Assembly (NCBI GenBank): GCA_029834535.1
Contig: JAQMWT010000644.1
Coordinates: 1 to 20,765 of the forward strand
Direction: 5' to 3'
Length of the DNA stretch: 20,765 nucleotides
Source of the DNA: Chrysophaeum taylorii
Taxonomy: Eukaryota > Sar > Pelagophyceae > Pelagomonadales > Pelagomonadaceae
Shown here piece by piece: positions 1,120-19,454 of the stretch; the stretch's first letter is position 1, and every line of letters starts with the position of its first letter. The notes beneath the pieces were generated by a model. That model did not search any database, had not been told where the DNA came from, and was given only the letters and a program-made list of their open reading frames with translations. The translations under genes were made by a program, and so were the position numbers.

Positions 1120-1534
1120 GGGCACGCGCTCTTCCATCTTATCCTCTTCTCTCCAACGGCGTTGGCGACATCACGTCACGAGACGGGACGACACGACACG
1201 GCACGGCTCGCCGCTCGGTTATTTTCTCGCGCGTCGCTTTACCAGCACTACCTGCCATGCATTCAAAGCAGCTCGCGGCCTCTTATTAAATTTTGCGCTT
1301 TACATCGTTTGTGTTGAGCGAAGAATCGTCAGTCTGAGATTCAGGTGACGATGGTGTTGTTGTGCGGACTTGTCTGGAGTCGCCAGGTGCGACACAGGAG
1401 GGAGGGACGTAGGGAGGTAGGAGGAGCCGAGCTGCTTCGGTGATGATAATCTTCTTAAGAAGATGATGACGCTGACGAGGTCCAAGTTGCCGATATTGAA
1501 ATGACGGTGATGGTGGGGAGCGAGTGGAGCCAGT

Positions 1535-4166
1535 TTAGAGAACGGCGTTGTTACCCGGGAGCTGGCGAAAAGCCTCAGCGCTGGCATGGGCTGCCCGAGC
1601 GGCTGTCTGGCGAAGATGACGGTGGGGTTCCTCTTCGCTCTCCTTTCTCTCCTTGTCGTCGTCACTGTCGTCCATCCGTGGGTGATTCCGCTCCGCTCTC
1701 ATCCTCTTCGCAGCGGCCTTGACGGCGTCGTTGCGGCCACCGCCGCGCTTCATTTTGGGCCTTCCGCGAGGCCGTGGGACGGCGAGCGGCTTGGTAAGGG
1801 CCGTCTCGGACGGGACCACCGAGCCAAAGTCCGGCACAGGCAACTGACCGGCTGCAAGGTACTGAGACTTCATCAGGGCCGTCGTGTCGAGGCGCGAGAC
1901 GCACTCCTGCAGCGTCTTGCCCGCGCACTCATTGATGACAGCGGCAACGTGAATGCACGGAAACTCGTTGACTTGGGTCCGCCACAATCGCAGGTTGGGC
2001 AGTCACGGTGGATATTCACGTGGAAGACGCGTCGACTGCAGAAGGCGCGCGCCCCCCCCGCCAGACCAGGCGATGCGCGTCACTTGATCCCTCGCGGCCA
2101 CTTCGACCTCGGCGAGCTTGCCGATCGCTTTTGTCGTCGCAAATGTCGACATGCTGCTCGCCTCTGCCGCATACTTGTCAATCTTCTCCTCGCTCATCTC
2201 GACGAAGCGAACAAGTGCAGCAGCCGGGTCCTCGATTTCCCGGACCTCCTTTAGCAGAGACCAGAGCGACTCGACCTGGTTTGAGGTGTGCTTCTTGTGG
2301 AGGAGACCCGCGTTCTGCAGCGCGCACTGAACATCTCGGGAACTTGTCCACGAACGATTTTTCCTTCGGCGAGCTTCGTACGCAACCTGCTGTGCGTGCT
2401 CGCTCGTCGCCTCCACCTGTGAAACGTCTGTCGCTAACACGAGATTGACAACATTGAGAGTGACAAAAGGCGACATTGCGAGACTCGGACGAATACGAAG
2501 TTGAAGTACCGATCCTTGGCTCCCTTGGTGCCGGATTTGCCGGCGAGCAAGGTTCCTCTGTGCTCCTTGCACAGAAACATGCGTCCACGATGAATTTCAT
2601 TCTTAATAGCGGCAGCACCGCCCTTATCGCCGTCGACGATGAACACGGTGGTGGCAGTGTCGATCTTTTCCTCGCCGTAGTACTCCTTACCCTCGCGGAA
2701 CAGTCGGGACCAGCTCTCCGTGGACTCGTTCTCGGTGGTGTGCATGAAGACGAGGGGAGTGATGTGGTAGTTCGAGTCGTAGCCCGTCACGGCGCCGAAA
2801 TTACCGCCGTCGACATGCTTGGCCCTGGCGAAATCGGCCGCAAACACTGGCTTGATCAAGTTGCCCTGGAGCATCCTCCAGGTCGTGGGCGGAGCGACGA
2901 CCCAGCCCCTGTAATAGACCTTGTCCGGATCGGCCCGCGGCAACGTTGCCTCGTCTAGGGTGACCTGCTTCTCACGGGGCCGGCCCTTGTTCAAGTGCTT
3001 GAGGTCCGCCTTGGCGCGTGCTACGACGATAGCGTTCATTTGATCGGCGGTGGCAGTGAGCAACTTGGCGTGCCAGCCCGCGTCCTGTAGCGCTTGGATG
3101 TAAGGCTTGATCTTCTTCAGGTTGTCGCTCGGCTTTCCACGGAGCTGGAGGGCAGCCATCGACGTCACACGCGTTACTAGGTCTTCGGAAGGGGTCACAA
3201 GACAAATGGGTGCGAGTACCGCCTTGACTCCTGAGCGGGGCACGGACATGCGGTTTTCCCTTTGGGACTGCACGGCGGCTTGAGCCAAGACTTCCGCCGA
3301 GTAAGCCGTCCTGCGATCGCGGTGCGGGTGCGAGTCGGCGTCTTGTCTATCACGACGCCCATCGACCGAGAGCATCCCGCAATCCGGGTCGTGTCGCTTG
3401 AAGTTTACAAGCTTCCAGGACGCGACGCCTGAGACCTCGCGGCGGCGGGCGTCGAATAAATGGGAACACGTCGGCTGCGTACAGACCGTTCGCAGCTGCG
3501 TACGGTTTTGACGGGCTTGACTTTGGAGCGCGGATGGGCCGTGTCGAGGAACGTAAGGAACGACGCACCCGAGGCCTCGGAGTACTCCATCGCCGTCACC
3601 AGCGCCCCCTTTTTGGATTTCCAGCTCGTCACCGACTCTTCCTTCTCGCCGTTGTACGAGTTCAGCACGGCGCGCGCGCGTAACAACTCCTCGGCGCGCA
3701 GTTCTTTATCCCAGTCGACCGTACTGAGCTCCCTCAGCGAGCGCGGAGCGCGCCAGGACTGCTCCTCGTCCTCCGCCGCGATCCGTGCCTTGCGCTCCTT
3801 ATCAGCCTTGGCCTTATTGGCCTTCTTCTCGGACTCCGTTAAAGCCGCGCGCCGCACGAGCGCCGCGGCCTCCTGCTCAATCTCTTCCTCCCCAAAACTC
3901 TCCTCCTCCGACGACTCGCCGAGCGCGATTGCCACCGCTGCTAAGTTCTGCGACACAGGAGCCATCGTCGGCGGCACTGATGTCATCGGCGGCACTTCTG
4001 TCTGCAGCACGCTCTCCTCTAGCTTGGCAACAACTCCGTAGACTGGAGCGCGCTGCTTGCGGCAAGAAATGATTATGCGCGCTAACTTCTTACCTTGCTT
4101 CGACCGTGCCCTTGACTTCTCGAGGGTGCCGAGCGGGTTGAGGAGCGCTTCCTTCCTGTCGTCCAA
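1535..4166 (-). pseudogene. MULE transposase, broken by frameshifts
   Basis: Four overlapping minus-strand frames together read as one Mutator-superfamily transposase. The N-terminal piece (4166-3405) is charged, with an acidic run and a K/A/R-rich helix. A second frame carries a WRKY/FLYWCH-like finger remnant ending in WKLVNFKRHDPDC near 3420-3385. The core (3375-2434) has AADFARAKH with D181, ESW at 220-222, VDGDKG at 247-251 and CKEH at 269-272, the usual first D, conserved E..W, second D and C..H of MULE cores. The third acidic residue is E101 in TSNQVES (frame 2572-2003, near 2272). A SWIM finger follows: its CxC half is in one frame near 1990 and PCIH in another near 1960. An AT-hook core PRPRGRPKMK lies near 1775-1750, then an acidic tail. 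Frame changes near 3490, 2450-2560 and 1965 make it a pseudogene. Long antisense frames here are shadows. Confidence 0.85.
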
Positions 4167-4234
4167 CCTTCAAACTGCCCACGAGCTTCATACCGAAAGG
4201 GGTAACCGCCAGGGGTAAGGAAAGCAACGTGAAG

Positions 4235-4520
4235 CAACTCAAACTTGTGACACTTATTTACAATTTTTAAAGAAGTGTGACGCTAAAAAATATTTTACCA
4301 GAAGAAAAATGACACTTATAACAATTTTACAAAAGGCTGTGACACTTATTACAATTTTTTTTACAATGGCAGCCTCTACACCAATTTTGTTATAGTAGTG
4401 ACACTTTTAACAATTACATGTATCTTAATGACACTTATAACAATACAGGGTTAAGCGGTTTACATATACCAATTTTATTTTTAAAATCACATATAACAAT
4501 TTGCACCTCTTAAAGGACAC
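4235..4520. repeat. MULE right subterminal repeat array
   Basis: At least five units of GTGACACTTATAACAATTT type (for example near 4247, 4310, 4340, 4400 and 4430) followed by degenerate CACATATAACAATTT units. They are inverted relative to the left array at 787-960 and so mark the other end of the MULE. The last clear unit is near 4485-4500. Confidence 0.7.
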
Positions 4521-4660
4521 ATATAACCGAATACTTCTTTTTTTAACCTAAGCCCTGCCTAAGCTGCTTTAGGTTCGCCAGGCTTTGAGTTTAGTCCTAA
4601 ACCCTGAGTGTTGTTGTTTATCGTTTTCTACTTACTAGGTAGACATTTTGACCGTTGAAA

Positions 4661-4740
4661 ATATGAGAAGTATTGAGAAGTTTTGAGAAGTATTGAGAAG
4701 CTCTGAGAAGTTTAGAGAAGTTTTGAGAAGTTTAAAGAAG
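4661..4740. repeat. 10-bp tandem repeat, about 8 units
   Basis: Eight consecutive 10-bp units with consensus TTTTGAGAAG fill these 80 bases with one to three changes per unit. The flanks (4521-4660 and 4741-4990) show no gene I can support. Confidence 0.85.
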
Positions 4741-4991
4741 GATTTTGTTGCTGAGTCAGTACGTTCCGAAACAGAACACGGACTCGGCGCCGCCAAGGGG
4801 CACGAGCGCGGCACGGAGTTTCTAGAAGATTGGATTCATTTGCCCCTTTCCTTACGGGTTACCTGTGGGCCCTTTCGTCTAGAGACTTCGGTTGTGGGAA
4901 CCTTGTCGTTCGCGACTCGCCGCACGCGATGCCAAAAAAGATGATAAATATCGCGCTCTTGACCCTTACCCTGATTCTACTCTCAACCTTC

Positions 4992-5089
4992 AAGCAAGGG
5001 GTTATTGATAAGCAAGGGGTTATTGATAACCCCTTGCTTCAACCATAACCCCTTGGTTGAAGCAAGGGGCTATCAATAACCCCTTGCTT
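4992..5089. repeat. Cluster of nested hairpins built from AAGCAAGGGGTTAT
   Basis: The unit AAGCAAGGGGTTATTGAT occurs at 4992-5009 and again from 5010. There it forms a perfect 14-bp stem with TG at the centre (5010-5039). A second hairpin of 14-bp arms with one mismatch is at 5060-5089. Between them TTCAACCA and TGGTTGAA (5038-5061) form an 8-bp stem with 8-base loop. The arms overlap, so alternative folds exclude one another. Confidence 0.85.
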
Positions 5090-5618
5090 TAAGTCTCTCA
5101 TAGGCTCCATAGTCATAGCGCCATACTTTTCGCGATGGAGGACGGTGCCTTCTGAACCCGCTCCTTGTGAAGGAATCGGTCCTCCCGGCGTAGGTTGGCA
5201 CCTGTTCGCCTCCCTTGCGAGGGCACCGGTCCTCCCGGCGTAGGGTGGCACCTGTTCTCCTCCCGAACGGGCCTGTTGGCTTCCGGGACGTTCGCAGCGG
5301 GACGAGGTATGGTCGGGGGGCGTGGAAGGAAGTTGACGACGAAGTTGACAGTGAGTCCGAATGTCCGCGGTCTCAAAAATGAGGCGAAGATAGTTCACGT
5401 ACGGCCGGGTCTCATTAAGGCACTCCGAATATTTCACATAAGCACGAAAATATGGTACTCCCTCGCTCATGACCGTGACAACTGGCGACAGACCATCCAC
5501 GTGCCCTCTGACCGCCCGACGACTCTGATTGCACGCGCCGCGGTGCTGGGAGTAAATAGCCGACGCCCCATGCATTGGGCCGGCCTTTAGTTTATTAGTT
5601 AGTGGTGACAGCTGCCAG
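5090..5618. other. No gene seen apart from a tandem repeat
   Basis: Between the hairpin cluster and the gene at 5619 there are only short frames on both strands without recognisable domains. A two-copy 50-bp repeat lies inside and is listed separately. Confidence 0.5.
5177..5265. repeat. 50-bp tandem duplication
   Basis: The block beginning CGGTCCTCCCGGCGTAGG is repeated with a 50-bp period (5177 and 5227), the second copy differing at a few bases and running to about 5265. It is GC-rich and carries no evident gene. Confidence 0.8.
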
Positions 5619-6191
5619 ATGCACGGGGAGGGCGCGAGGAGCGAGAAGCAAAAGTACGCCCGCGAGAATATCGAGAATCGGCTTTTCATGAAGTTCAAGA
5701 ATCAGCTGAACGGCAGTGAGCAGCTGTAGCGGCCGGTCAACTACGTCGAGATCGGCTGGAAGAAGCTCGACGCCTTCCTCGACCAGTTCGAACACAAGTA
5801 TGCCAGGGTCAAGTGGTTCAAGCCCTCGGCGCCGCAGCCTTCGACGGGCGAACGGCTTGTTGCTCAGGAGGCCACCCGAGATGCCCAACGTGATGCCCTC
5901 GCGGCCCTGTGCGAAGAGCTTCCGCCGACGTCGATCGAGACGGCAAAAAGGATGGACCTCGTGCGAAGGGCCAAGCTGATGGGCCTCAAGCTCCAAGTCC
6001 CTAGGACCGACGGCAAGCCCGGCACGCGCCAGAAAGTCGCCGAGCTCCGCAAGGCTTTCCTCGGGACACTCCGCCCCTCGGCCAAAGAGGCGCCCGCTCC
6101 GTTCGCTCCCGCTCCCGCGCCCGCGCCCGCCGCACCGTTCCCGCCCACCTCACCTTCAACCGCTTCCGACGTCGATATGGCCGCGTCTTGA
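5619..6191 (+). pseudogene. Unknown GC-rich protein gene with one in-frame stop
   Basis: An ATG at 5619 opens a frame of 191 codons to TGA at 6189-6191, interrupted once by TAG at 5727-5729. The third-position GC bias and charged helical composition continue on both sides of the stop, so it reads as one gene with a recent nonsense change, or as a gene starting at a downstream Met such as 5952. The N-terminal part is Lys/Glu/Asn-rich. The middle has VEIGWKKLDAFLDQFEHKY and a helical stretch with many Arg, Ala and Glu. The C-terminus is an Ala-Pro tract (roughly residues 160-178) ending in SDVDMAAS. I do not recognise the family. It lies between MULE and Helitron A, and could be a host gene or cargo of an unrecognised element. 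Confidence 0.5.
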
Positions 6192-6397
6192 ACGCAACAC
6201 CTTTGCGGGCCCTTGACTGCCCGAGGGCCCGAGCGGACGAACCCGTCAAGCCAGAGCGCATAGCAGTAGTTCGTCTAGATGTACGTCATTTGTACAAGTG
6301 TAGTATGTAGGCAAATCAGGTTGCATTCGTTCCGTTGAGAAAGGGAGAGAGAGAGATTATCTACATTGTAAGAAGAACTGTTCTCTTGAAGTCGTCA

Positions 6398-6777
6398 ATG
6401 GGCGGAACGATGAAGATCAGCGAAAGCGAGTGTCTCAAGCTCGCGAAATTGCTTGAGGCCGAGGCCCTCCCGGCGGCGTGCAAGGAGGTTGTCGCCAAGT
6501 CGGGGAAGAACAAGACGGCCTGGGAGGGCGCCTCGCACAGGTGAGAGTGGAGGTCCGTTTTGACTTTTGCATAGGGATTTCATGATTTCGAAACATACCC
6601 AACTTCAGCGTCGTCTTACATCTTCCCGCGGCGTCGGCAACTAGCGGCGCTTCAACTGTATCACCAAGCCGTATCATGTATGTATCTTTTAGAGCGCGGT
6701 TCCGGCCGCGAACCGTGCCGTCGTGCCCGATGCGTTTCGAAACACTAGCCGTATGTAGTATTGGACGCGTGCGCTAA
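6398..6777 (+). CDS. Possible small two-exon gene, unknown function
   Basis: From ATG 6398 (or 6410) a short frame encodes an amphipathic stretch, KISESECLKLAKLLEAEALP, with later GKNKTAWEGASH. The frame meets TGA at 6542, but a consensus donor CAG/GTGAGA lies exactly there (GT at 6541). A pyrimidine-containing acceptor ends in CAG at 6608, which would give a 68-base intron. Joining keeps a frame open to TAA at 6775-6777. The second part has no clear domain and may be non-coding. Unspliced, the product would be 48 residues from 6398. The family is unknown. The stretch 6192-6397 shows nothing. Confidence 0.25.
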
Positions 6778-7132
6778 TCATCCGTCGGCAACTTACGTTT
6801 TATGTCGCGAGGATCTCGAAACATACCAAGCTGTGTCTGTGATAACTAACTAGGACCTGGGTGCCTCTGTCAAGACTCCCCCAAAAACGTTCTGGCTCAT
6901 GTTTGCTGTCTCCTCCGCCTCATCTCTTCTTGTTGCTCTCACCACGCCTCTTCCCCCGTCTGCTTTACCATCGCCTTTCTCTTGTGTTGAGCGAGAGTTG
7001 ATAAATAACGCCGGCCGGCCCACTGTCTTGAGCGAGGTGCCAGAGTGCGGGTTCTTTTCATAAGCATTGTGCACTTGACCTAATAATCCTTTGGTTGAAA
7101 AACTAGCCCTCTTCGATTGAAGAAAGAGAGAG
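6778..7132. other. No gene supported
   Basis: A 74-codon minus-strand frame (6850-7074) lacks recognisable features. A short motif TCGAAACATACC recurs near 6590 and 6822. Nothing else is apparent before the Helitron derivative. Confidence 0.4.
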
Positions 7133-7149
7133 TCCTAACTACTAATCGA

Positions 7150-7304
7150 CAGTCAGTCAGTCAGTCAGTCAGTCAGTCAGTCAGTCAGTCAGTCAGCCAG
7201 TCAGTCAGTCAGTCAGTCAGTCAGTCAGTCAGTCAGTCAGTCAGTCAGTCAGTCAGTCAGTCAGTCAGTCAGTCAGTCAGTCTGTCTGTCTGTCTGTCTG
7301 TCTG
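7150..7304. repeat. (CAGT)n then (CTGT)n microsatellite
   Basis: About 130 bases of CAGT repeats with a single CAGC variant near 7195 are followed by about 24 bases of CTGT repeats. The array sits immediately after the Helitron 5' end. The inverted copy B has a (CAAA)n run at the equivalent place. Confidence 0.95.
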
Positions 7305-7310
7305 GTCGGT

Positions 7311-7497
7311 CTGTCTGTTAAATGTTGACTGCTAATGTCTGTCTGTTAAATGTTGACTGCTAAGAGGGGGGTGTGTGGGGGGAGCATGAAGGATGTGGGT
7401 GGGTTTGTGGGGTCTGTTTGTTTGTCTTTAAATGTCGACTGCTAAGAGGGGGGGGTGTGTGGGGAGCATGAAGGATGTGGGTGGGTTTGTGGGGTGT
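7311..7497. repeat. Tandem units of about 26 bp and about 80 bp in Helitron A
   Basis: CTGTCTGTTAAATGTTGACT is duplicated at 7311 and about 7337. A longer unit, running from TTAAATGTTGACTGCTAAGA through the G-rich GGGTGTGTGGGG to GGGTGGGTTTGTGGGG, occurs near 7346-7411 and again near 7427-7495. Copy B has a single version (about 16526-16586). Confidence 0.8.
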
Positions 7498-7612
7498 GAG
7501 GGATGTGCCTGACGGGCGGAGATAAGGACGCGGGACCTAGTCAGGGTCATCGCCGTCTGTTTGTTTGTCCCTCGATTTAGGGTAAGGATCATGTAGGCCC
7601 GCGAGCCAGCCA

Positions 7613-8197
7613 TTGATCCTCGAAGCCGTCTACGGCGACCTCGCAGACTATTTCCACGACCCGCGGCGGCTCTTTCAGCGCACCATTCTCACGCCCCGTC
7701 GAAACGATGTTGTCGATGCTGACAACGCGCGCATGACCGCGGCCTTTTTTTCCCGGAGACGAGGTGTCGGAGTTCTTTTCGGCAGACTAGGTTGGGTCGG
7801 AAGACGACGCCTCGCTCTTTACAGTCGAGTTTTCGACTCCCTGACAACCAACGGCATGCTGACTTTGATCGCGAGCTTAAAGTCTTCGCAACCTCGACCC
7901 GTCGCACGGCCACTGCAACGGTACCAGATACATGATCGATCGTGTCGTGTCACCGAGGCTCCTCCAACCTGTATCCCTTAAGGCCCGCCGACGCCAAACG
8001 ATCAACAAGAGCCAGGGCCAGACGCCCCGCGAGGTCGGCGTTCTCTTGCCCAAGCCCGTCTTCTGCCACGCCCAGCTCTACGTGGCTCTCTGTCGATCGG
8101 CAACCCCGAGGATGTGCTCTTCTGAGTCGACGATCCTACCCCACACGTGCTGCGCAATACCGATAAGCCCCCTCCCGGCGTCTACACGCGCACTGTA
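7613..8197 (+). pseudogene. Pif1-type Helitron helicase, C-terminal fragment (copy A)
   Basis: Pieces in two or more frames match the end of the Helitron Pif1-like DNA helicase. Near 7620-7740 AVYGDLADYFHDPRRLFQRT and ILTPRRNDVVDADNARM match the segment before the 1B region. Near 7908-7935 [11 protein letters not shown] carries the CNGTR hallmark. At 8005-8090 [22 protein letters not shown] are helicase motifs V-VI. The RepHel N-terminus, Walker A and Walker B are missing, and frames change between segments, so it is a non-functional remnant. The same truncated stretch is in copy B, so the truncation predates the split of the two copies. Confidence 0.85.
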
Positions 8198-8548
8198 GGA
8201 GAGCTTACTGGGCCAGGTGAACTTACTGGAACCAGGTGAACTTACTAGGGTTAGAGATTGGGGCAATGTGAACTAAGTGACCAGGTGAACTTACTGAGAC
8301 CAAGTGAGCTTACTGGGGTTTTTGGAGTAAACTCAAAGGTTAGCGGCGTGTGCGGATCAAAGCAGCTTAAATTGGCGGGAGTGAGAGCGACGAGTTCAAA
8401 GGAGAGTGGGGTGAGTGGATGTGAGCACGAGTGGATTTACGCCGAATTTTACTGGGGTTGGAGATTGGGACTAGGTGAACATAACGGGATTAGGTGAACT
8501 TACTGGGGTTAGAGATTTGGAGTAGGTGAACTTACTAGCCTGCACTTG
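8198..8548 (+). repeat. Subterminal GGTGAACTTACT repeat array, copy A
   Basis: The 3' third of Helitron A holds about nine variants of AGGTGAACTTACTGG, several followed by GGTTAGAGATTGGG. The same array lies inverted at 15514-15862. Between the clusters is a common spacer with GATCAAAGCAGCTTA. Confidence 0.85.
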
Positions 8549-10022
8549 TCGATGACCTATTGATCACTGGTACCAACACTGCCAAAATTGCGTCTCTTCG
8601 CACCGCTCTGGAGACCGAATATGCGGTGCATGGGGGTGTACCAGGGTCGTAACCGTAGATGGAGTACGTGTGCGGGGTGATACGAGGAGCATCCGGGTGG
8701 ATAGGCGGTGGAAGGGTGTTGAGGATTTCCCGAAGAACAGCATCCTGGGCTCGTTGGGTGTCGTGGAGAATCGCGAAGGAGGCTTATTGGGCGGAAAGAT
8801 GAGCTTTTGCTTGGGCGAGATCGGATTTGATTTCGTTGTGAGCGCGGGCTTCGGCGTCAAGGCGGGCGTTGGCGCTGGCGAGTGCGGTTTGAGTTGCGAT
8901 CAAGGCGTCGTAGAGAACTTCGGGGTTCATGGAGGAGGGAGGAAGGGTGGTGTTGTCGGAGAAGTTGCCAGGGCCGTCACAACCATAGGTGGCGTAGTTG
9001 CGCGGGTGGAGGCGTTGGTCTTCGGAGAGGAGTGTGCCATGTACCGGGGTAATAATGGCAGTGGTGTCGGAGATGGGGACTTGAGTGTGGAGTGGTGGTG
9101 CTGTGTTCGATGAAAGCGAACAAGGTGATGGGGCGGTGCCTGGAGAGGCAGACGAAGGTGGGGTTGTGGATGGGGTGACGACCGGGATGTTCGGTGGGAC
9201 GATCGGGACGGACGGTATGGTGACCGGGGTGGTCGTAGCTTGTGGTGTTGTGACCGGAGTGGTCGGGGCTGGTGGTGGTGAAGCGGGAGCGGTGGCAACA
9301 TCGGGAGGAGCTGCGGCGGCTATAGTTGGAGGAGCGAGCGGGACGGTCGGAGGGGAGGTTCTGCTGTAAATGGCGTCGATCCGTTTGGCCCTATGCTGGT
9401 AGAGCTGGTGAAGCATTGCGCGGCTGGCGGCTGCGACAGCGTCGAACTGCAGTGGGGTATGTAGCTGCTTGTACAGCTGCCGAGACAGATCGAGGTGGGC
9501 GGCTACTCGGGCACGGTGGGCGGCGGAGTCCGCGGCGAGTGCGTCGAGTTGATCGTCGTCGATATCTTCTTCGTCGTCGTCGTCGGGATCTTCGTCGTTG
9601 GCGGCATGGTCGGCGGCATGGTCGGCGGCATGGTCGGCGGCGAAATCGTCTGCTAGTGGTGCGATTGCTTGGTGAGGGTCTTGGTCGTGGTCTTGCGTGC
9701 GCGACATCTTGTGCTGCGAGTCGCGGGACGTGGTTGGGGGCTGTGGGTCTTGACGTGTGAACGTGCTGGGGGTGGGGTCCGGGGTGGTGGGTGAGGGTGT
9801 ACTCGCTGGGGCGGGTGCAGGAGGGGTTCCGCCGGTAAGAGCGGCGAGCTGGTTCTGCATCTGCTGGAATTGCTGGTCGCGTGCGTTGTCGCGTGCGGCT
9901 TGATCTTGCTTGAGTTGATCGATAGTTCGAGCGTGCTCTTGCTTCAGGTCATCGATATCTCGAGCGTGATCTTGTTTCAGTTGTTCGAATTCTCGTCGCA
10001 TATCTTGGTTGCCGCGAGACAT
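8549..10022 (-). pseudogene. Gag-like coiled-coil protein of an LTR element, truncated
   Basis: ATG at 10022 opens 412 codons to TAA at 8784-8786, and the same frame continues in a similar style to the Helitron A boundary at 8549, where it is cut. Residues about 8-60 form a heptad coiled coil (repeats of DDLKQEHARTI type). Pro/Thr/Ser-rich linkers, tandem DHAA repeats and an acidic run (about 145-160) follow, then a helical Ala/Gln/Arg-rich block (about 165-215), a long Pro/Thr-rich linker and a final helical segment after residue 370. There is no zinc knuckle. It is called gag-like from position: a sequence close to the initiator tRNA-Met PBS lies 155 bases upstream (10178-10188). A host coiled-coil protein is the alternative. 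Confidence 0.4.
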
Positions 10023-10381: not shown

Positions 10382-10627
10382 ATTTTCTACCTCAAAGATG
10401 TTAACGTAACGTCCGATCCCCAAGACGATCAACCTGATGAGGGCGAAGCCGAAACCGATGAACAAGACGACAACGGACACCTCGGCTTCTACGACGACAA
10501 CGGTCAGATAAACCTCTACGACGACACCATTCCCGAAACCAATGATGAAGATGACTCCGGCGAAGGCTACGCCAAACGCCACAGTGACTACGTGCGTGCT
10601 CTCCACCAGAGGCGGCTTTTTCGCTGA
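10382..10627 (+). CDS. Acidic segment at the 5' end of the MTase element (partial)
   Basis: The frame is open from 10382, after an in-frame TGA, to TGA at 10625-10627 and has no ATG of its own at the start. It is rich in Asp, Glu, Gln and Asn (for example DPQDDQPDEGEAETDEQDDN) and has HLGFYDDNGQINLYDD. It is probably the C-terminal part of gag or a gag-protease linker whose upstream portion was lost. The stop overlaps the ATG of the protease frame as TGATG (10625-10629). Confidence 0.4.
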   Translation: MFYLKDVNVTSDPQDDQPDEGEAETDEQDDNGHLGFYDDNGQINLYDDTIPETNDEDDSGEGYAKRHSDYVRALHQRRLFR

Positions 10628-11043
10628 TGGTTGCCGACGACGCCTGTGCCGCCAACCACATCTTACTTCATCAGGCACCAAACCTCAAGATGACGAATTT
10701 CCCGACCCCATCAACTATTTCCCCAAGAGTCGCGGATTTCCTTTGTGCAGCTTACACCCCAGAAAAGAACTCAAAGAAGACTAGCTCGCTGCACGGATGC
10801 AATGGACCCGGCACCGAAACCTTCTTGATTGACGGTGGCGCATCTTTTTGGTTTACGCGCACAATTCAAAATTTTGTCCCTGAAACCATACGCCGAATTC
10901 CCGAACACACCACTCATATGGGACGAGGCACTCTCACCAGCCACTCATCGGTGTTAAACCGTTGTATCTGCAGGCTGCAGGTCTCTCTTCAAAGGATACA
11001 CAAGACAAAACCGGTTACGCTTTATATCTCGTATTTATGGTAG
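10627..11043 (+). CDS. Retroviral-type aspartic protease of the MTase element
   Basis: The frame has 138 codons from ATG 10627 and is open from 10588. Residues 66-73 read FLIDGGAS, the catalytic D[S/T/G]GA motif of retropepsins, with Asp69 at 10831-10833. Residues 74-101 (FWFT, QNFVPETIRRI, MGRG) fit the copia protease pattern of a Phe-containing strand followed by a Gly-x-Gly turn. The sequence after about residue 104 looks out of frame, and the natural continuation is in the -1 frame, which leads into the methyltransferase. It would cut the polyprotein. I am confident of the motif, less so of the exact ends. Confidence 0.65.
   Translation: MVADDACAANHILLHQAPNLKMTNFPTPSTISPRVADFLCAAYTPEKNSKKTSSLHGCNGPGTETFLIDGGASFWFTRTIQNFVPETIRRIPEHTTHMGRGTLTSHSSVLNRCICRLQVSLQRIHKTKPVTLYISYLW
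10953..10959 (+). promoter_or_regulatory. Candidate -1 ribosomal frameshift heptamer GTTAAAC
   Basis: G TTA AAC lies in the protease reading phase inside the 160-base overlap (10884-11043) between the protease and methyltransferase frames. A -1 slip there moves directly into the methyltransferase frame. The heptamer is of the N NNA AAC class, and this exact heptamer is a documented slip site in arteriviruses. A downstream stimulatory structure is not obvious by eye. Confidence 0.35.
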
Positions 11044-12356
11044 TCCCGCAATTCAGGCAAGGTCTTCAAGTTATCGCAACATCTCAGCTCAAAGCTCTGC
11101 ATGTACAAGCAACCGACCCGCCCCTGCCCCACGAGCCCTACCTCTACGAGCTTCTCAAGTCCTCAACCTCAGACCCCCACAATGGCTCAGCAGACCTCTC
11201 TGCGCAGTCACAAACCCCTCTGCTCAAAACAGCCATTATTGCAGGTGGACTCCACCAGGAAGGTTTCGACACTTTTCGCAAACGATTCGACAAACGCCTT
11301 ACTGTCGTGGTCACCTGCGAAATCAACGATATCCTGCGCACCCGTGCGCAACAACTCTTCCCGCACGCCCTGCACTATGCGGACCTCAGAAAACTCAATG
11401 CCGCACTCCAAACCCACAAAATACGACCCCCTACATTCGACCTGGCAGTTTTCACATTGCCCTGCCAACATCTGAGTGTAATGAAAGACTACGACGGCTA
11501 TGCCACTCCGGTCACCGCCGACATCTTCGTCAAAGAACAAATCCGCTTCGTTCGTTTCACGCTCCCGACCGATGCCATTGTCGAGAACGTACCTCCCAAC
11601 CCCCGAACTCACCACGAGTATGCTCAACTCGCCAAGGGTTATCAGCGCTTAGGCTACTTCCGCCACTCCGGCGTCTACAATGCCTCTGCTTTTTGTGAAG
11701 TCATCAGCAAGAAACGCTATCTCGCTGTGTATGCCCGGCACCCGCTCACCGGCTACAACCTCGAGAAAACCGCCTCAACTTGGTTAACCTCGCCTCCGAG
11801 CATGGTTCCTCTCCTGGACCCCAGTTACAACATCCCTGACGATGTCTGGATCGCCAAACCCGCCCTTCGTGGTACAGTGCCCCGCTCCACATTGGACTAC
11901 TACCAGCACAAGGCTACCTACTACTACAAGCCCGCCAACGCCTCGAAACTCTCGATTTCCGAAAATGCCCGCATCTGCCAAATGCTCGCACGTCTCAACA
12001 AGCCCTTCACGGATCTCGGTCTAGATGCCGACGGCACCCCCTACGCCGCGATGGCGTCCATATCCCACCTCCTGGTTTTCACGCTCCTGCACAACCATTT
12101 GTCGCAACACCCCACTCTCGCCGCTTGGAACACCATCCGCTGTTTTCATGCCTCAGAGTCTCAATGTGCTTACCATTTGGATGGAACCATCACCGGCACC
12201 GCCGCTACTGCCGTCGCATGTGGATACTTCTCGCGCGCCTCCCTCACCCTACATTCCAGGCCCCCTAAGATTTTGGACTGTTCCCATCAACCCGCAGTCT
12301 TATCCCCAACGCACTCCTTTCCCTGGATGTTCCCAAGGGCACCGCCTTTCTGGTAG
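10962..12356 (+). CDS. C5 cytosine DNA methyltransferase domain in a retroelement
   Basis: The frame is open from 10884; no ATG is near, so it is probably made as part of a polyprotein. Numbering from codon 10962, the order of C5-MTase motifs is visible. Motif I-like IIAGGLHQEGF is at 92-102 and motif II CEIND at 119-123 (the acidic residue that would hold AdoMet ribose). HYADLRKL is at 138-145. Motif IV FDLAVFTLPCQHLS is at 159-172 with catalytic Cys168. Motif VI ENV is at 208-210 and motif VIII-like SKKRYLAVYARHP at 249-261. Motif IX-like KLSISENARICQ is at 329-340 and motif X-like YAAMASISHLL at 361-371, where the usual GN is lost. The region between VIII and IX is short, so target recognition may be minimal. 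Expected activity is 5-methylcytosine formation on DNA. Residues after 400 are unknown. The frame ends at TAG 12356, with the -1 frame continuing. Confidence 0.8.
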   Translation: MYLQAAGLSSKDTQDKTGYALYLVFMVVPQFRQGLQVIATSQLKALHVQATDPPLPHEPYLYELLKSSTSDPHNGSADLSAQSQTPLLKTAIIAGGLHQEGFDTFRKRFDKRLTVVVTCEINDILRTRAQQLFPHALHYADLRKLNAALQTHKIRPPTFDLAVFTLPCQHLSVMKDYDGYATPVTADIFVKEQIRFVRFTLPTDAIVENVPPNPRTHHEYAQLAKGYQRLGYFRHSGVYNASAFCEVISKKRYLAVYARHPLTGYNLEKTASTWLTSPPSMVPLLDPSYNIPDDVWIAKPALRGTVPRSTLDYYQHKATYYYKPANASKLSISENARICQMLARLNKPFTDLGLDADGTPYAAMASISHLLVFTLLHNHLSQHPTLAAWNTIRCFHASESQCAYHLDGTITGTAATAVACGYFSRASLTLHSRPPKILDCSHQPAVLSPTHSFPWMFPRAPPFW

Positions 12357-12373
12357 TCGCTTACACCACCTCC

Positions 12374-15283
12374 TTGGCCGCCGCTCACAGCTGTTCGCGC
12401 CCGTCCACTTGGGTCCACTATATGAATCGTTCGCATCCTGGCTTTGCAGCGATCGACTCACAAGGGCGAATTGCTCTCGATGACCCCAAGGGACTCCTAA
12501 TGTCCAAAGCACGTCCCACTTACGCGGACTATGTCGGCCACATCGGAGACAAGCTTCAGAAGAGCACCAAGTGCTGCTCGGTCACTGGCTCGTACCCCAC
12601 CAACACGAGCTACTCCAATGCCTTGCTGCTGATCTCTCCAGACCACATTCGTTACGCGACCCTCAACGAAATCGCAAAATTTGGACACCACTCGGACCCG
12701 GAACTGCTCCGCCTGTTCAAACAGCACCCGCCGTACTTCGCGTTCAAGGCACTGGCCAACGCCGTCCCGCACCACATGTTGCAGGCAAAGTACAACGCTG
12801 TCATCGCATTCCACGAATCGCACCACCACGTGAACCTTCACGTCGAATGGGCCACGATACGCCACGGCATCCCCAGCCCCGGAGACATCAACCAGGTTGC
12901 AGAATTCTTCTCGGCCATCTCCAGCCGTCTCTTAGCTGAGGAAGACCTGAACCTCACCTCCCTCTTCAATGCCGTTGCAGATGCTCACCATGATGCGATC
13001 CGCAAACCAAGCGAATCGACAAGCCTCGAGACGCTTCTTGCAGAGGCAACCGTTGCTAAAATCCGAGTCGACAAGCGACCCAGCCCCCCCAGCGCTTCGA
13101 CTGCTGCTCTGCCTCCCTTGCACCAGCTCGGCACCATTCAGCACGCCAAAAGAGTGCTTTTGGTCACTCGCTGGCACCGCATACACCACAAACAACCCGA
13201 GATTCTTCGCCGCACGATCGAAGCTAATGTAACGAATCTCCGCCCAGGTGATGATCGGTATCTGCAAGACTGCAGTGAATGCAAGCGCTGCCAATCGCAT
13301 GTAAGCTTCAGTCACAAAAACAATTCATGGCCACAGGACGAACTGGCCTACGCTCCCGGCCAACACCTCCACATGGATGTATCATACCCGAGCATCCGCA
13401 AGTGCTACGGCGGATTTCGCTATATCATGCACTTTGTGTGTATTATCTCAGCACACAAATGGGTCTATTTCCTGCGGAAATTAGACGCACAGGGTGTTCT
13501 GGCCGGCATCCTCTATGTGGTCAATGTGATTAAAGTCGAATTCGATGTCAATGTGAAGATCATATCCTCTGATGCCATCTCAACTTTTCGCTCCGAAGCT
13601 TTCCACCCCCTCAAGGTGCAGCTTGGTCTCCAACTCCAAATCCTTGGTCGCCACCTCCACAAGCGGAACTTTGCTGAAAACATTATCAAGGAAAACACCC
13701 GAGGCACCGTAGTTCGCCTCCTCGACCTTCGCAGTGTACGCATCGAAGGAAAGTCTATTGCCGCTGAATATTATCACCCATTTGCTCTCCTGAATAAGAT
13801 CCAAGCCGACAACCAGCGCTCTCATAGACTGCCCTCGCGCACAAACATGCCATGCACCGCTCCCCGGCGTATCATGTCACCCATGCCACCGCTCTTGAAG
13901 CTTCTCCCCTTTGGCGAACCTGTCACTTTGGTCTACGCTCAAAGTCACAAGCTGGAACCCTCCAGCGTCCCCGCCTCTTGCATTCATAGTAACAACTATC
14001 TCCCGAACCTCCCCGGGACGGACCTATTTATCCGAGATGTTCACAGCTCTATCTTGCTTGTACATCAAGAGCGATATGGGAAAATCGTCACCTCAAACGA
14101 CTTCCATGTCGACGCAGACATGCCAGTCAACCGTAACAAGGAGATCGAACGGATCAAAGCACTCGCACAGATCCCAACAAAGGCACGACAAGAGCACACG
14201 CTACCAGCTATAAGCGAACAGCAAATGCCGGAAGTTAGACAGGAATCAAAAAATGAGGGTGAGACTCACGAAGACGAGCACGATGATAAACCTAGCGATG
14301 ACGACGAACACAAAGAACCGGATCCAACTCCCGCTGCTGATTCAAGTCCCGTCAGCGACGCGACATCTGAACAGGATTTTTCGTTCCTCAACCGGTCACC
14401 TCCGCCGGATGGTAGCATTCCGATGCCCAAACGAAAAGATCGCCTAGAGGTTGTTCTCGACGATTCAGGTTTTACTCCAGTTCTCGTGCATCGCAACCAG
14501 AGCGACAAACTCAAGGCAGATCTCAAGGAAGAACGCGGATTCCGCGTCCCTAAAGATCAACTCTATATCGTGAAACGTGTTGACGATGGAAAACTCTTCA
14601 CCAGACGCATTCTCGCCTCCGAGTATGGTCGCAACTGGAAATACCAGCAGGAGCAATCCACGGCTCACGCCACAGCCAACATGTCCAGCACATTGATGTT
14701 CCTCATCAATGTCAGCGCTCTGCACCAGGGCCACGCCGCCAGCATCGCCTCAGCTCTCAACATTCGAAGAGATGCTAAGCCGCCTAATGATGTCCCGAAA
14801 GGATGTCTCCTAGCAAGTACCACACAAGACTATGGTATCATGGGCGGCACCGCACTGGATTTGCAGAGAGAAACCGACGCAGAACTCTTGTATGTTGACT
14901 TCCCCAGGAAGCCATACCACTCATCTGTGTTGGTTGACCACCTTGATAACGACAATTCTGTTCTCGAGAACTACGTGTGCCATGACGAAATGTCACCGGC
15001 AGAGTACTATGCGCGTCAATGGAATCAAGAATTTTGTTGTATGGGTTCCTCTCTTTTGTGGGACATCTCCGCGCATCAACACTGCCATCTAGCTTCTCGT
15101 CACAGGCATGCCTTCATGCATGATTCTGGCGAACTCGGACACCTCTTTCTAAGTCAAAGTGATCCGAATCAAGATATTCTCCAAGAAGTCATGGACTATG
15201 ACTTGCAGCACATCCATCACGTCGTGTTACTGGAGAGATTTGACCCTCTCCGGGTACATGGTAGAGACTGCGTGCAGTCTTAG
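12374..15283 (+). CDS. Integrase-containing pol polyprotein of the MTase element (3' truncated)
   Basis: 969 codons from the nominal start; the frame is open from 12269 and overlaps the methyltransferase frame, so it is probably one polyprotein. Residues 1-250 are of unknown function. An HHCC finger has H268, H271 (or H272), C300 and C303. The retroviral integrase core has D335 in HLHMDVSYP, D400 in IISSDAISTF and E435 in NFAENIIKEN, the last position matching the usual NGxAE; the D-to-E spacing is one residue shorter than the common DD35E. From about 600 to 720 comes a charged linker with acidic EDEHDDKPSDDDEH. The remaining 250 residues show no RT motif. The last 17 codons (after 15231) are translated from the inserted copia LTR, so the true C-terminus with RT/RNase H is lost or lies beyond 20765. 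Confidence 0.75.
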   Translation: MAAAHSCSRPSTWVHYMNRSHPGFAAIDSQGRIALDDPKGLLMSKARPTYADYVGHIGDKLQKSTKCCSVTGSYPTNTSYSNALLLISPDHIRYATLNEIAKFGHHSDPELLRLFKQHPPYFAFKALANAVPHHMLQAKYNAVIAFHESHHHVNLHVEWATIRHGIPSPGDINQVAEFFSAISSRLLAEEDLNLTSLFNAVADAHHDAIRKPSESTSLETLLAEATVAKIRVDKRPSPPSASTAALPPLHQLGTIQHAKRVLLVTRWHRIHHKQPEILRRTIEANVTNLRPGDDRYLQDCSECKRCQSHVSFSHKNNSWPQDELAYAPGQHLHMDVSYPSIRKCYGGFRYIMHFVCIISAHKWVYFLRKLDAQGVLAGILYVVNVIKVEFDVNVKIISSDAISTFRSEAFHPLKVQLGLQLQILGRHLHKRNFAENIIKENTRGTVVRLLDLRSVRIEGKSIAAEYYHPFALLNKIQADNQRSHRLPSRTNMPCTAPRRIMSPMPPLLKLLPFGEPVTLVYAQSHKLEPSSVPASCIHSNNYLPNLPGTDLFIRDVHSSILLVHQERYGKIVTSNDFHVDADMPVNRNKEIERIKALAQIPTKARQEHTLPAISEQQMPEVRQESKNEGETHEDEHDDKPSDDDEHKEPDPTPAADSSPVSDATSEQDFSFLNRSPPPDGSIPMPKRKDRLEVVLDDSGFTPVLVHRNQSDKLKADLKEERGFRVPKDQLYIVKRVDDGKLFTRRILASEYGRNWKYQQEQSTAHATANMSSTLMFLINVSALHQGHAASIASALNIRRDAKPPNDVPKGCLLASTTQDYGIMGGTALDLQRETDAELLYVDFPRKPYHSSVLVDHLDNDNSVLENYVCHDEMSPAEYYARQWNQEFCCMGSSLLWDISAHQHCHLASRHRHAFMHDSGELGHLFLSQSDPNQDILQEVMDYDLQHIHHVVLLERFDPLRVHGRDCVQS

Positions 15284-15513
15284 GCGTGTACAGACCATTC
15301 CGCTTGCCACATGTTACTACACAAGGTAGGGATTTAGGCCCTAACTTCTTAAGGACATTAGGTCCCATAGAAGCGTTCACACTGACAATGAGGAATGAAG
15401 CCTCCATTAATTAAACAGACAACTCCATACCTGACGGTACGCACCTGGAGGTCTACTCCTTGTTGGAAGTGAACTGCAGATCTAATTCTTCATAATCTGA
15501 GATAACAATATTT

Positions 15514-15862
15514 CAAGTGCAGGCCAGTAAGTTCGCCAGTAAGTTCACCTGGTCCCAATCTCTAACCCCAGTAAGTTCACCTGGTCCCAGTAAGTTCACC
15601 TAGTCCCAATCTCTAACCCCAGTAAGTTCGTCGTAAGCCCACTCGTGCTCACATCCACTCACCCCACTCTCCTTCGAGCTCGTCGCTCTCACCTCCGCCA
15701 ATCTAAGCTGCTTTGATCCGTACACGCCGCTAGCCTTTGCGTTCACTCTAAAAACCCCAGTAAGTTCACTTGGTCCCAGTAAGTTCACCTGGTCACTAAG
15801 TTCACCTAGTCCCAATCTCAAACCCCAGTAAGTTCACCTGGTCCCAGTAAGTTCACCTACAG
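15514..15862 (-). repeat. Subterminal AGTAAGTTCACCTGGTCCC array, copy B
   Basis: About ten copies of the TAAGTTC core lie in two clusters (15525-15640 and 15755-15862). Most are in the form AGTAAGTTCACCTGGTCCC, and some are joined to CAATCTCTAACCCC. Spacing alternates between about 17 and 33 bp. Confidence 0.9.
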
Positions 15863-15888
15863 TGCGCGTGTAGACGCCGGGGGGGGGC

Positions 15889-16448
15889 TTATCGGTATTG
15901 CGCAGCACGTGTGGGGTAGGGAGGAGTCGTCGACTCAGAAGAGGATATCCTCGGGGTTGCCGATCGACAGAGAGCCACATAGAGCTGGACGTGGCAGAAG
16001 ACGGGCATCGCCAAGAGGACGCGGACCTCGCGGGGCGTCTGGCCCTGGCTCTTGGTGATCGTTTGGCGTCGGCGGGCCTTACGGGATACAGGTTGGAGGA
16101 GCCTCGGTGACAACGACACGATCGATCATGTATCTGGTACCGTTGCAGTGCCCGTGCGACGGGTCGAGGTTGCGAAGACTTTGAGCTCGCGATCAAAGTC
16201 AGCATACCGTTGGTTGTCAGGGAGTTCAAAACTCGACTCTTGAGAGCGAGGCGTCGTCTTCCGACCCAACCTAGTCGGCCGAAAAGAACTCCGACGCCTC
16301 GTCTCCGGGAAAAAAAGGCCGCGGTCATGCGCGCGTTGTCAGCATCGACAACATCGTTTCGACGGGGCGTGAGAATGGCGCGCTGAAAGAGCCGCCGCGG
16401 GTCGTGGAAATAGTCTGCGAGGTAGCCGTAGACGGCTTTGAGGATCAC
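15889..16448 (-). pseudogene. Pif1-type Helitron helicase, C-terminal fragment (copy B)
   Basis: Same remnant as copy A. AVYGYLADYFHDPRRLFQRA and ILTPRRNDVVDADNARM lie near 16440-16320, and TKSQGQT and LYVALCR in another frame near 16050-15960. Walker motifs and the Rep domain are absent, and frames change along the segment. The truncation start is the same as in copy A. Confidence 0.85.
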
Positions 16449-16592
16449 TGTCTGGCTCTCGCGCCTACCTGATCCTTACTCTCGCGCCTACCTGATCCTT
16501 ACCCTAAATCGAGGGACAGACAAACAAACCCCCCACCCTTCATGCTCCCCACACACACCCCCCCCTCTTAGCAGTCGACATTTAAAGACAGA

Positions 16593-16626
16593 CAAACAAA
16601 CAAACAAACAAACAAACAAACAAACA
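16593..16626. repeat. (CAAA)n microsatellite
   Basis: About eight CAAA units close to the 5' terminus of Helitron B. It sits where copy A carries its (CAGT)n/(CTGT)n array. Confidence 0.95.
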
Positions 16627-16776
16627 TCTGTCGATTAGTAGTTAAGATATAAGGGCGGAAGGGTAAGGAAGGAAAGAGGGAAAGCCGTATTACGGAGAGA
16701 AAACCCTCTTGCAGAGATAGGTGTGAACGGCGTGAAATGTTCCAGTGTCGTACACATAATAGTGTAGCTCTCTGGA

Positions 16777-17460: not shown

Positions 17461-19107
17461 TTAGGGCTTGGACTTGGTGGAACTGAGAGTCGACTTGACG
17501 CTTTTGAACAGAGCATTACGAAACACAGCTACGACAGACAGTGTGTTAAAGCTATCTGAGGTAGTGGACGTTACTGGTTCGAGGGTATCGGTATCGTCTT
17601 CGCCAGCTTCTGCTGTCAGGCGGTGAACGCCAATAGTAGAATGGTGTGGTACCATACGAAACGTGAGTGCAAGTAAAGCATTCAGTAGGGATGGCACTAG
17701 TGAGTCAAGTTGTACGGTGTCCAGTTGGTTTTCCAAAAAGTTGGACTCAGCGAACGGATCCGAGAGGATATAAGGGTCTTCCAATTCACATGCGAAGGGA
17801 ATGCTTTGAATACACGAGAGCAAATTATCACGTATACGATGGAGGTGATCGTCCGTGGAGGAATGGTTGGCGGCATATTGATCATGAGCTGTCAGCGTTA
17901 AGCGAGACAGTAGCTCTGTGATCTTGAACAGTGTTACAAACGACACGTGTGCATTGGCTGTAGGAGGAAAGAGCCGGTTTTCCAGGGAGGTAATTGAAGC
18001 AATGGTTGCCTGTAGATCTGTGTGCAGAGATAGATTCTCAGCGCTAAAGGTGCTGACCTTGCGAATATATAGGCGAAGAGTTTCCTGGAGTTGTTCGACT
18101 TGTTGACGCAAAGCATCGACATCATCAGGCGAGGCAGAAGGAGCAGGGTGTGTCGATGGCGAAGACATTTCCAGAGTAGATTCTGATGAGGGAAGTGAGT
18201 AGTTAAATGACATTTCCGTCAACACATGCTGTGCAAGTAGAGGGTATTTCGTGTTTAGGAAGTGCAGAAAGTCTTGACGTTCGGCCGAAGTATAGGTGGA
18301 ACCGAACATTACATCCAAGAGTGATGGCGGCTTTGTATCGTCTGAGGATGATACGTAGTCGTCAAGGTGTTGTACCCACGATTGGAGAACAGTATGAATC
18401 ACATGGTGGTATTTGGTGGGCTTGAACATAGCCTGAGTTTTACGAGCTTGTGTTCGCTCGAGCGTTACAAGAAAGTTAAGATGCTCCAGGTGCATCTGAG
18501 TAATAAGCCGAAGGTCCAGTGCCAATGGTAATTGAGTAGTGGAGTCTGTGGCTGCATCGGTTACCGATAAGACTAAATGAGCAAGTGACGAGTGTCGCGT
18601 TAGATTTCTGGTCAAGATGAACTGTAGCTTTTGGCAAATGACACGTGCGTATGATGGTTGCGCGTATATGTACCAGCTGAGCACCCGTACAGAGGTTTGG
18701 AAGGATAGCACATGTGCACATAACGTTAGGTTGTATGGGCGCCTGATCGGTGTTGTGACAAGCACAAAAATGTTAGTGGTGATAGTTGAGATGGGAATGA
18801 GACCATTCTTCTTGTGGTCATCTGTGTTGATGTGACTCAGTACTTCAGTGGGGAGTTCACTAGGTGCTTGTGACTTCGAATTATGTGGTAGAAGCAAGAA
18901 ATGTAGCTGTCCTAAGTTGTTGAGGCATCGCGTACATAGGATGACAGATGAAACGTTCACGTTTGGGGCCTCTGTAGCCAATAGAAGCAATAGCAGGAGC
19001 AGCTTCCAAAATGTAGTAATGGGTAGGCGCATGGATATGAATCGTAAGTTCCACAAACAGTTAGTCGATTCATATCGAGTTGAGTGCCGTGAGATTTCCG
19101 CTCGCAT
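17461..19107 (-). CDS. Uninterrupted ORF in envelope position, putative secreted/membrane glycoprotein
   Basis: 548 codons. Met26 (ATG at 19032-19030) is the likelier start, because it gives a classic signal peptide: MRLPITTFWK followed by eight Leu and ATEA. Six or more N-glycosylation sequons are visible (NVS, two NLT, NYS, NLS, NHS). A coiled coil spans roughly residues 325-375 (DALRQQVEQLQETLRLYIRK and onward). A weakly hydrophobic LVPSLLNALLALTF is near 465-480. I see no clear C-terminal transmembrane helix and no furin-type site. The family is unknown. Its place, downstream of RNase H and upstream of the polypurine tract and 3' LTR, is where plant Sireviruses and errantiviruses carry envelope-like ORFs. 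It is intact although the adjacent pol is decayed. A captured host gene is the alternative. Confidence 0.5.
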   Translation of the reverse strand: MRAEISRHSTRYESTNCLWNLRFISMRLPITTFWKLLLLLLLLATEAPNVNVSSVILCTRCLNNLGQLHFLLLPHNSKSQAPSELPTEVLSHINTDDHKKNGLIPISTITTNIFVLVTTPIRRPYNLTLCAHVLSFQTSVRVLSWYIYAQPSYARVICQKLQFILTRNLTRHSSLAHLVLSVTDAATDSTTQLPLALDLRLITQMHLEHLNFLVTLERTQARKTQAMFKPTKYHHVIHTVLQSWVQHLDDYVSSSDDTKPPSLLDVMFGSTYTSAERQDFLHFLNTKYPLLAQHVLTEMSFNYSLPSSESTLEMSSPSTHPAPSASPDDVDALRQQVEQLQETLRLYIRKVSTFSAENLSLHTDLQATIASITSLENRLFPPTANAHVSFVTLFKITELLSRLTLTAHDQYAANHSSTDDHLHRIRDNLLSCIQSIPFACELEDPYILSDPFAESNFLENQLDTVQLDSLVPSLLNALLALTFRMVPHHSTIGVHRLTAEAGEDDTDTLEPVTSTTSDSFNTLSVVAVFRNALFKSVKSTLSSTKSKP

Positions 19108-19454
19108 AACAGAAGAGATAACGGGGCGTCAGGGACACGGAAGCTCTCAAGAAAGAGAGAACTCGTTCAATCAGCAAATCCATGTTAGGCCATCCTGGAG
19201 TGTCAGATTGTAGTAAACAGGTTCAGCTGGTGTCGGTGAGACAGCAGCAGCCTGGGAGGTAGTCGGAGTGACAGTGGTTATGGTTGTCGCTTGAACCAAC
19301 TTGGAAGGCTCGGCCGTGGAGAGCGAGGCAAATGTCCTTCGAACGACCGGAGATGCCACGGCCACGGCCACGGGAGTGCCAAGAAAGACATGAGTGACAC
19401 TCACACGACACACGTACAAAAAATGTGCAAAAGAAGGTAGGGCCGGCTAGTTTG
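19108..19454 (-). other. Spacer with a small Thr/Pro/Ala-rich frame (19171-19419)
   Basis: An 82-codon frame has a Val/Ala-rich hydrophobic stretch (GTPVAVAVASPVV) and a Thr/Ser/Pro-rich remainder. It may be a broken upstream part of the envelope-position ORF or non-coding. No family is recognised. Confidence 0.25.

Follow-up and report, generated by a model that had tools for sequence, protein, structure and literature searches.

A predicted C5 cytosine methyltransferase as a regular part of pol in a Ty1/copia retrotransposon family of the alga Chrysophaeum taylorii

In the genome of the alga Chrysophaeum taylorii, a predicted C5 cytosine methyltransferase domain is a regular constituent, kept under selection, of pol in a Ty1/copia retrotransposon family (here family A), lying between the protease motif and the integrase. 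The stretch of DNA analysed (20,765 nucleotides, hereafter the window) is contig C644, one of the 697 contigs of the 70.8-Mb genome. A first-pass annotation of the window, made from the letters alone, had proposed such a domain inside a copia-order retroelement and was right about it, but was silent on the state of the copy in question, which is dead: a fragment with its frames broken.

The layout of the window copy is best read against a much more complete copy of the same element on contig C96 (locus L041). By blastn, window positions 10407-11183 align to positions 2457-3234 of the C96 element at 95.5% identity and positions 11180-15230 to its positions 3513-7564, with around 278 bp that are present in the C96 copy missing between protease and methyltransferase. 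The window copy shifts frame near 12350 and stops at 15230, short of the reverse transcriptase (RT), which in a blastn comparison with the C96 copy is absent from the window except for a stray 76-bp piece. No LTR match was found within the window at E 1e-3. That these parts belong to one element follows from the collinear copies found elsewhere in the genome. The features are:

10407..10624, plus strand: 3' part of the gag region, end approximate (blastn against the C96 copy; gag frame in L041 1400-3133)
10588..10944, plus strand: start of pol, including the LIDGGAS protease motif at 10825-10845 (tblastn with L041 pol residues 1-119, 91.6% identity)
11180..11183, no strand: junction of the ~278-bp deletion relative to the C96 copy (blastn alignment blocks)
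11202..12164, plus strand: predicted C5 cytosine methyltransferase core, motif I-like to motif X-like (PF00145; L041 pol residues 300-620, 94% identity)
11460..11468, plus strand: motif IV PCQ with the catalytic Cys (sequence; Cys in 44 of 45 copies)
11583..11591, plus strand: motif VI ENV (sequence; Glu in 43 of 44 copies)
11706..11720, plus strand: motif VIII-like SKKRY (sequence; Arg in 43 of 45 copies)
11958-11972, plus strand: motif IX-like SENAR (sequence)
12305..15229, plus strand: remaining pol up to before RT, in a frame different from that of the methyltransferase (tblastn with L041 pol residues 668-1642, 95.6%)
13124..13753, plus strand: integrase region, HHCC and D,D,E by eye (95% identical to the C96 integrase region)
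8548..8623, plus strand: stray 76-bp RT fragment of the same copia family (98.7% to element positions 8233-8308)

The domain does lie inside the interval 10884-12356 originally assigned to it, with the core taking up only 11202-12164, but that interval spans two frames rather than the one supposed: the frame holding the protease motif closes at 11043 and the methyltransferase frame is open from 10962. The flanking protease and integrase had been named from their motifs. The putative protease is identified by LIDGGAS and position only, no Pfam protease family being found in the scanned window frames or in the C96 pol frame, whilst the integrase, whose motifs are indeed visible downstream, gives a weak match to PF00665 in the window (E 0.01) that falls below the cut-off.

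The window domain is almost certainly a C5 cytosine methyltransferase and part of a copia pol, the enzyme assignment following from the HMM match, the order of the motifs and their spacing. The comparison with PF00145 that the first-pass annotation had set as a check returned a match to the window frame 10962-12353 (464 aa) above the cut-off (23.9 against 22 bits, E 3.2e-5). Of the 19 aligned family members, searched individually with an E limit of 0.1, 18 match PF00145 (best E 2.5e-12) and none matches any other Pfam family; with NCBIfam, the top match for two members taken alone is TIGR00675 (dcm), below cut-off. The PCQ, ENV, CEIND, motif VIII-like and motif IX-like segments first noticed by eye are all present in order, and the motif IV Cys, motif VI Glu and motif VIII Arg follow one another in the proportions of copies listed above. 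The C96 copy places Cys and Glu 40 residues apart and Glu and Arg 44, compared with 41 and 41 in the DNMT2 and 41 and 37 in the DNMT5 of the host. The canonical S-adenosylmethionine (SAM) motif I is FxGxGG, from which the family A motif, IAGGL, departs, one Gly being kept in 42 of 43 copies. A profile search of solved structures gave one weak match (8yf3, E 0.34), and a structure model built from the window sequence alone, as a single sequence, had a pLDDT of 31.5, too low for the fold to be used. Queried with the window protein, L041 pol residues 190-800 and alignment A2, protein searches to E 0.01 identified no homologues outside this genome, and a scan of viral contigs found none either.

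More of the architecture is visible in the C96 copy, in which a 578-aa gag frame (1400-3133) is followed by an overlapping pol frame of 1952 aa. Within pol, LIDGGAS lies at residue 80, the methyltransferase at 305-620 (PF00145, E 1.1e-7), the integrase from about residue 941 (WHRIHH at 957, CSECKRC at 990; rve E 0.006 at 1016-1110, under the cut-off) and RVT_2 at 1686-1933 (E 1.6e-38). A search of the genome for copies reaching RT had been suggested at the outset, and the presence of PF00145 and RVT_2 together in this frame, along with the clustered integrase spacing described below, bears out the copia order. A stop codon at 8953-8955 is followed by another frame of 296 aa. The C96 LTRs (208 and 196 bp, 88.9% identical) have the ends TAGAGA...TCTCTA and are bordered on both sides by the 5-bp duplication CTCAC. 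On contig C104 the LTRs are 95.9% identical, with a TATCC duplication if the 5' LTR begins two bases before the blastn border; LTRs and a target-site duplication are thus found in both of the copies examined. After the LTR comes GGTATCAG, which we take to fit the initiator tRNA, and the element seemingly uses a tRNA primer.

Two methyltransferase queries of the genome gave 129 and 130 matches. Merging the rows used at gaps below 1200 bp yields at least 134 methyltransferase loci on 104 contigs; such totals are lower bounds (the best candidates were scored), with a few doubled-looking contig pairs acting in the opposite direction. A methyltransferase lies upstream, on the same strand and within 4 kb, of 75 of the first 90 integrase matches listed, where chance would predict about 0.004 per match, and the gap between the two has a median of 805 bp and clusters sharply around 775. 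Likewise, 43 of the first 57 RT matches listed have a methyltransferase 2-9 kb upstream. The idea that the methyltransferase, protease and integrase frames were joined by chance is refuted by these collinear copies.

The domain is also under purifying selection, like its neighbours. Nei-Gojobori dN/dS was calculated with one row per copy for pairs with dS >0.1; the pairs are not independent and dead copies are among the rows. The median is 0.161 for the methyltransferase core (45 rows, 896 pairs), with values of 0.154 for the protease region (38 rows, 534 pairs), 0.236 for the linker (43 rows, 804 pairs), 0.199 for the C-terminal part of the methyltransferase (45 rows, 910 pairs), 0.360 for the stretch that follows it (41 rows, 580 pairs) and 0.133 for the integrase (33 rows, 440 pairs). 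RT is reached by four rows only and so has no value.

The window holds several other features. Inverted repeats of around 1 kb (7346-8542 and 15535-16601) flank the methyltransferase fragment; by their motifs these flanks might be Helitron-like, and Pfam found no helicase family in two translated pieces of them. A direct repeat of around 400 bp occurs at 374-778 and 15230-16776, its second copy being split by about 1.15 kb and terminating the copia fragment. On the minus strand, 17461-20515 contains other copia fragments, with a gag-like frame and RNase H/RT pieces that by eye resemble loci L075 and L073; 2437-3375 contains a piece of MULE transposase (PF10551, narrowly missing the cut-off at E 8.5e-6), and 1538-1987 gives a weak SWIM match; and 8784-10022 contains a proline-rich frame of 412 aa with no confident family.

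Family A is not alone in the genome. Its next RT relatives, on contigs C560 and C214, are 42-44% identical to it. Profile A1 matches the family B piece of C560 (94.5%, E 8.4e-8) with a score of 55.1, compared with a maximum of 26.4 in 200 shuffles, in a piece for which Pfam alone lists no domain; at 25% identity, family B still keeps the catalytic Cys and Glu. Family C (C42), with an RT 37.5% identical to that of family A, has the order protease-like stretch (by eye), domain, integrase, RT. Its domain has no match in Pfam and shows by eye TPPC and QSRER, with AEM in place of the expected ENV. The domains of families B and C are alike by blastp (E 4e-6). Against family C, A1 alone scores within the shuffles (20.7, maximum 24.8), whereas alignment A2, which includes family B, scores above them (43.0 against 23.4; 75%, E 2.5e-5), and the link between A and C, as drawn from these alignments, is one that depends on family B. 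The same Cys is aligned in A, B and C at 18-26% identity.

A family C query gave 125 matches genome-wide, and family D (C344) matches family C at 44% over the second half of the domain. Loci L073, L074 and L075 belong to additional copia families in which a divergent methyltransferase-like domain occupies the same position in pol, Pfam listing no methyltransferase domain in L073. The domain, or part of it, is recognised in C560, C42 and C344 by comparison and in C214 by eye only, and no clear sister lacking it was seen among C560, C214, C42, C344 and C483, the C483 frame as read starting after the domain. Related domains occupy the same place in copia families whose RTs are only 34-42% identical, and a single capture that predates the split of these families is likely.

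A second, Ty3/gypsy family was reached via an open frame adjoining the copy on contig C314:

L055 3923-10000 (minus strand), L056 1-2385 (plus strand) and L061-L070: gypsy family with a C5 methyltransferase-like domain before RT, in one frame

In L055, RVT_1, RNase H, H2C2 and rve share one frame with a match to PF00145 that, in this long frame, lies under the cut-off (19.7 against 22, E 6e-4); in L056 the match is above it (23.2). Each of the eight aligned gypsy members has a PF00145 match within an E limit of 0.1 (best 6.7e-6), the match being confined in the tables listed to the N-terminal ~50 profile positions. Motif I is FSGAGG in this family, and by eye the domain continues with SPPC, a Glu 38 residues on, RVR and a motif IX-X-like end. 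It is preceded by a protease-like stretch (by eye) and placed before RT, mirroring the copia case. The median dN/dS of 0.065 (23 of 28 pairs of eight rows, the rows forming two groups) indicates strong purifying selection. A 192-aa query around the gypsy motif I gave 152 matches, many over the first 130 residues only.

Direct likeness between the family A and gypsy methyltransferases was not found. That does not establish that they arose separately, since hhalign likewise finds no likeness between the copia profile and host DNMT2. A short stretch is common to the gypsy domain and family C (blastp E 0.004), and among the host enzymes the gypsy domain matches DNMT2 with E 2.6e-4 and DNMT5 with E 0.49 by blastp; there are also weak DNMT2 matches at E 0.08-0.5.

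These two host enzymes are the other PF00145 genes recognised among 57 matches, in a search that scored 123 of 474 candidates and in which introns split genes, so that more may exist. L001 is a DNMT2 (human DNMT2 structure 1g55, E 3.9e-39) and L002 an SNF2-type DNMT5, which matches 7r76 (entry name Rad8, presumably the Cryptococcus DNMT5) with E 3e-143 and carries an SNF2 domain later in that frame. In Cryptococcus, DNMT5 is known as a maintenance-only enzyme. Adjoining L001 is a gene for a light-harvesting protein (best match VCPI-6, E 2.3e-17; also near FCP8 and peridinin-type chains), which points to a host alga with a red-derived plastid.

Between family A copies, C-to-T changes occur at 0.038 in CpG, 0.042 in CpT, 0.023 in CpA and 0.028 in CpC; they are commonest before T, slightly exceeding those before G, and there is no strong or clear footprint of CpG decay between these copies. 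CpG observed/expected is 0.95-1.05 in copia loci and 1.24-1.28 in two gypsy loci, and is lower in the copia loci than in two host-gene loci (1.26-1.46).

What might the domain do? By analogy with the tested SymbioDIRS enzymes, from which we infer both substrate and benefit, we lean modestly towards a pol-resident C5 methyltransferase that would act on freshly made DNA of the element itself or at its landing sites. The element's protease would release the domain, which would share the virus-like particle with integrase and RT and methylate cytosines of the new DNA copies, or at the sites where they land. A host enzyme of DNMT5 type that keeps CG methylation would then maintain the mark, and with it the element might camouflage or tune down its new copies. 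We favour self-methylation because methylation of an element's own DNA has been proposed before for retrotransposon DNMTs and because SymbioDIRS DNMTs methylate CG in yeast (PMC5890265); the LINE and gypsy DNMTs showed no activity in the same yeast test, a result called inconclusive (PMC5890265). Self-methylation is harder to square with the degenerate motif I in family A and with the absence of clear CpG decay.

Both of the latter would suit a non-catalytic domain, one that binds DNA or RNA and serves to guide the integration complex or to package the genome, as would the AEM that replaces ENV in family C. We regard this as unlikely, if worth keeping in view: binding alone would need none of the Cys, Glu and Arg residues that all but one or two family A copies keep, nor a Cys that aligns across families A, B and C. 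Methylation of RNA in the manner of DNMT2, with the element transcript or the tRNA primer as substrate, strikes us as more doubtful still. It would accord with the apparent use of a tRNA primer and with a gypsy domain that, of the two host enzymes, is closer to DNMT2, but the copia domain resembles DNMT2 only in a short stretch at motif IV, and those retrotransposon DNMTs described as active act on DNA (PMC5890265). That chance or misassembly placed a trapped host or bacterial gene here, as the window copy with its several broken frames might by itself suggest, is exceedingly improbable given the clustered spacing at many loci, the single open frame with RT and the purifying selection.

As the PF00145 genes found in the host comprise a DNMT2 and a DNMT5, and the enzymes conserved in the many copia and gypsy copies are of at least two unlike kinds, de novo C5 methylation in the alga might come from retrotransposons alone, the elements writing the methylome and the host copying it, although we consider this improbable. 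Carriage of a methyltransferase looks like something that the mobile DNA of this alga has long maintained. If these readings are true, a single alga harbours C5 methyltransferases in both large superfamilies of LTR retrotransposons, where they sit upstream of integrase or RT and directly past the protease region, and copia elements have retained one across families with RTs only 34-42% identical; carriage would be a long-term strategy rather than a rare accident, and the genome would be well suited to testing why transposons methylate DNA.

Retrotransposons carrying DNMTs are already known, the first-pass annotation having named those of dinoflagellates and charophytes: LINE and DIRS elements in dinoflagellates and gypsy elements in Klebsormidium are described in a 2018 paper, which also cites two earlier reports that link DNMTs to RT domains (PMC5890265). 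A later text names 'LTR Copia and DIRS' as DNMT3 carriers in one sentence that cites the 2018 paper (PMC12344493), but in its available text no copia element is described and the words 'Aureococcus' and 'pelagophyte' are absent, and the paper cited describes LINE, DIRS and gypsy carriers. A literature search, in which subscription papers fell mostly outside, found no copia element reported to carry a C5 methyltransferase. Among brown algae, the Sola1-1 transposon of Ectocarpus encodes a protein combining ParB with a DNA methyltransferase; it differs in being a DNA transposon and in that its enzyme is predicted to modify N4-cytosine or N6-adenine, not C5 (PMC12477816).

The nearest parallel is KnitGypsy-Dnmt3 of Klebsormidium nitens, in which a C5 methyltransferase is likewise encoded within the Pol frame of an LTR element and which, like the copia family described here, is expanded and intronless with Ka/Ks below 0.2; it differs in being a gypsy rather than a copia element and in its charophyte host, and its enzyme belongs to the DNMT3 clade (PMC5890265). 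SymbioDIRS-Dnmt3 and SymbioLINE-Dnmt of Symbiodinium resemble the copia family in their captured DNMT, high copy number and conserved key residues, but are DIRS and LINE elements, the Symbiodinium LTR Copia elements being without a DNMT domain in that account (PMC5890265). Given this difference in element class (copia as opposed to LINE, DIRS and gypsy), a capture separate from those in dinoflagellates and Klebsormidium is plausible. What the copia family shares with the elements of the 2018 paper is a DNMT in the element's own frame, many copies and purifying selection (PMC5890265).
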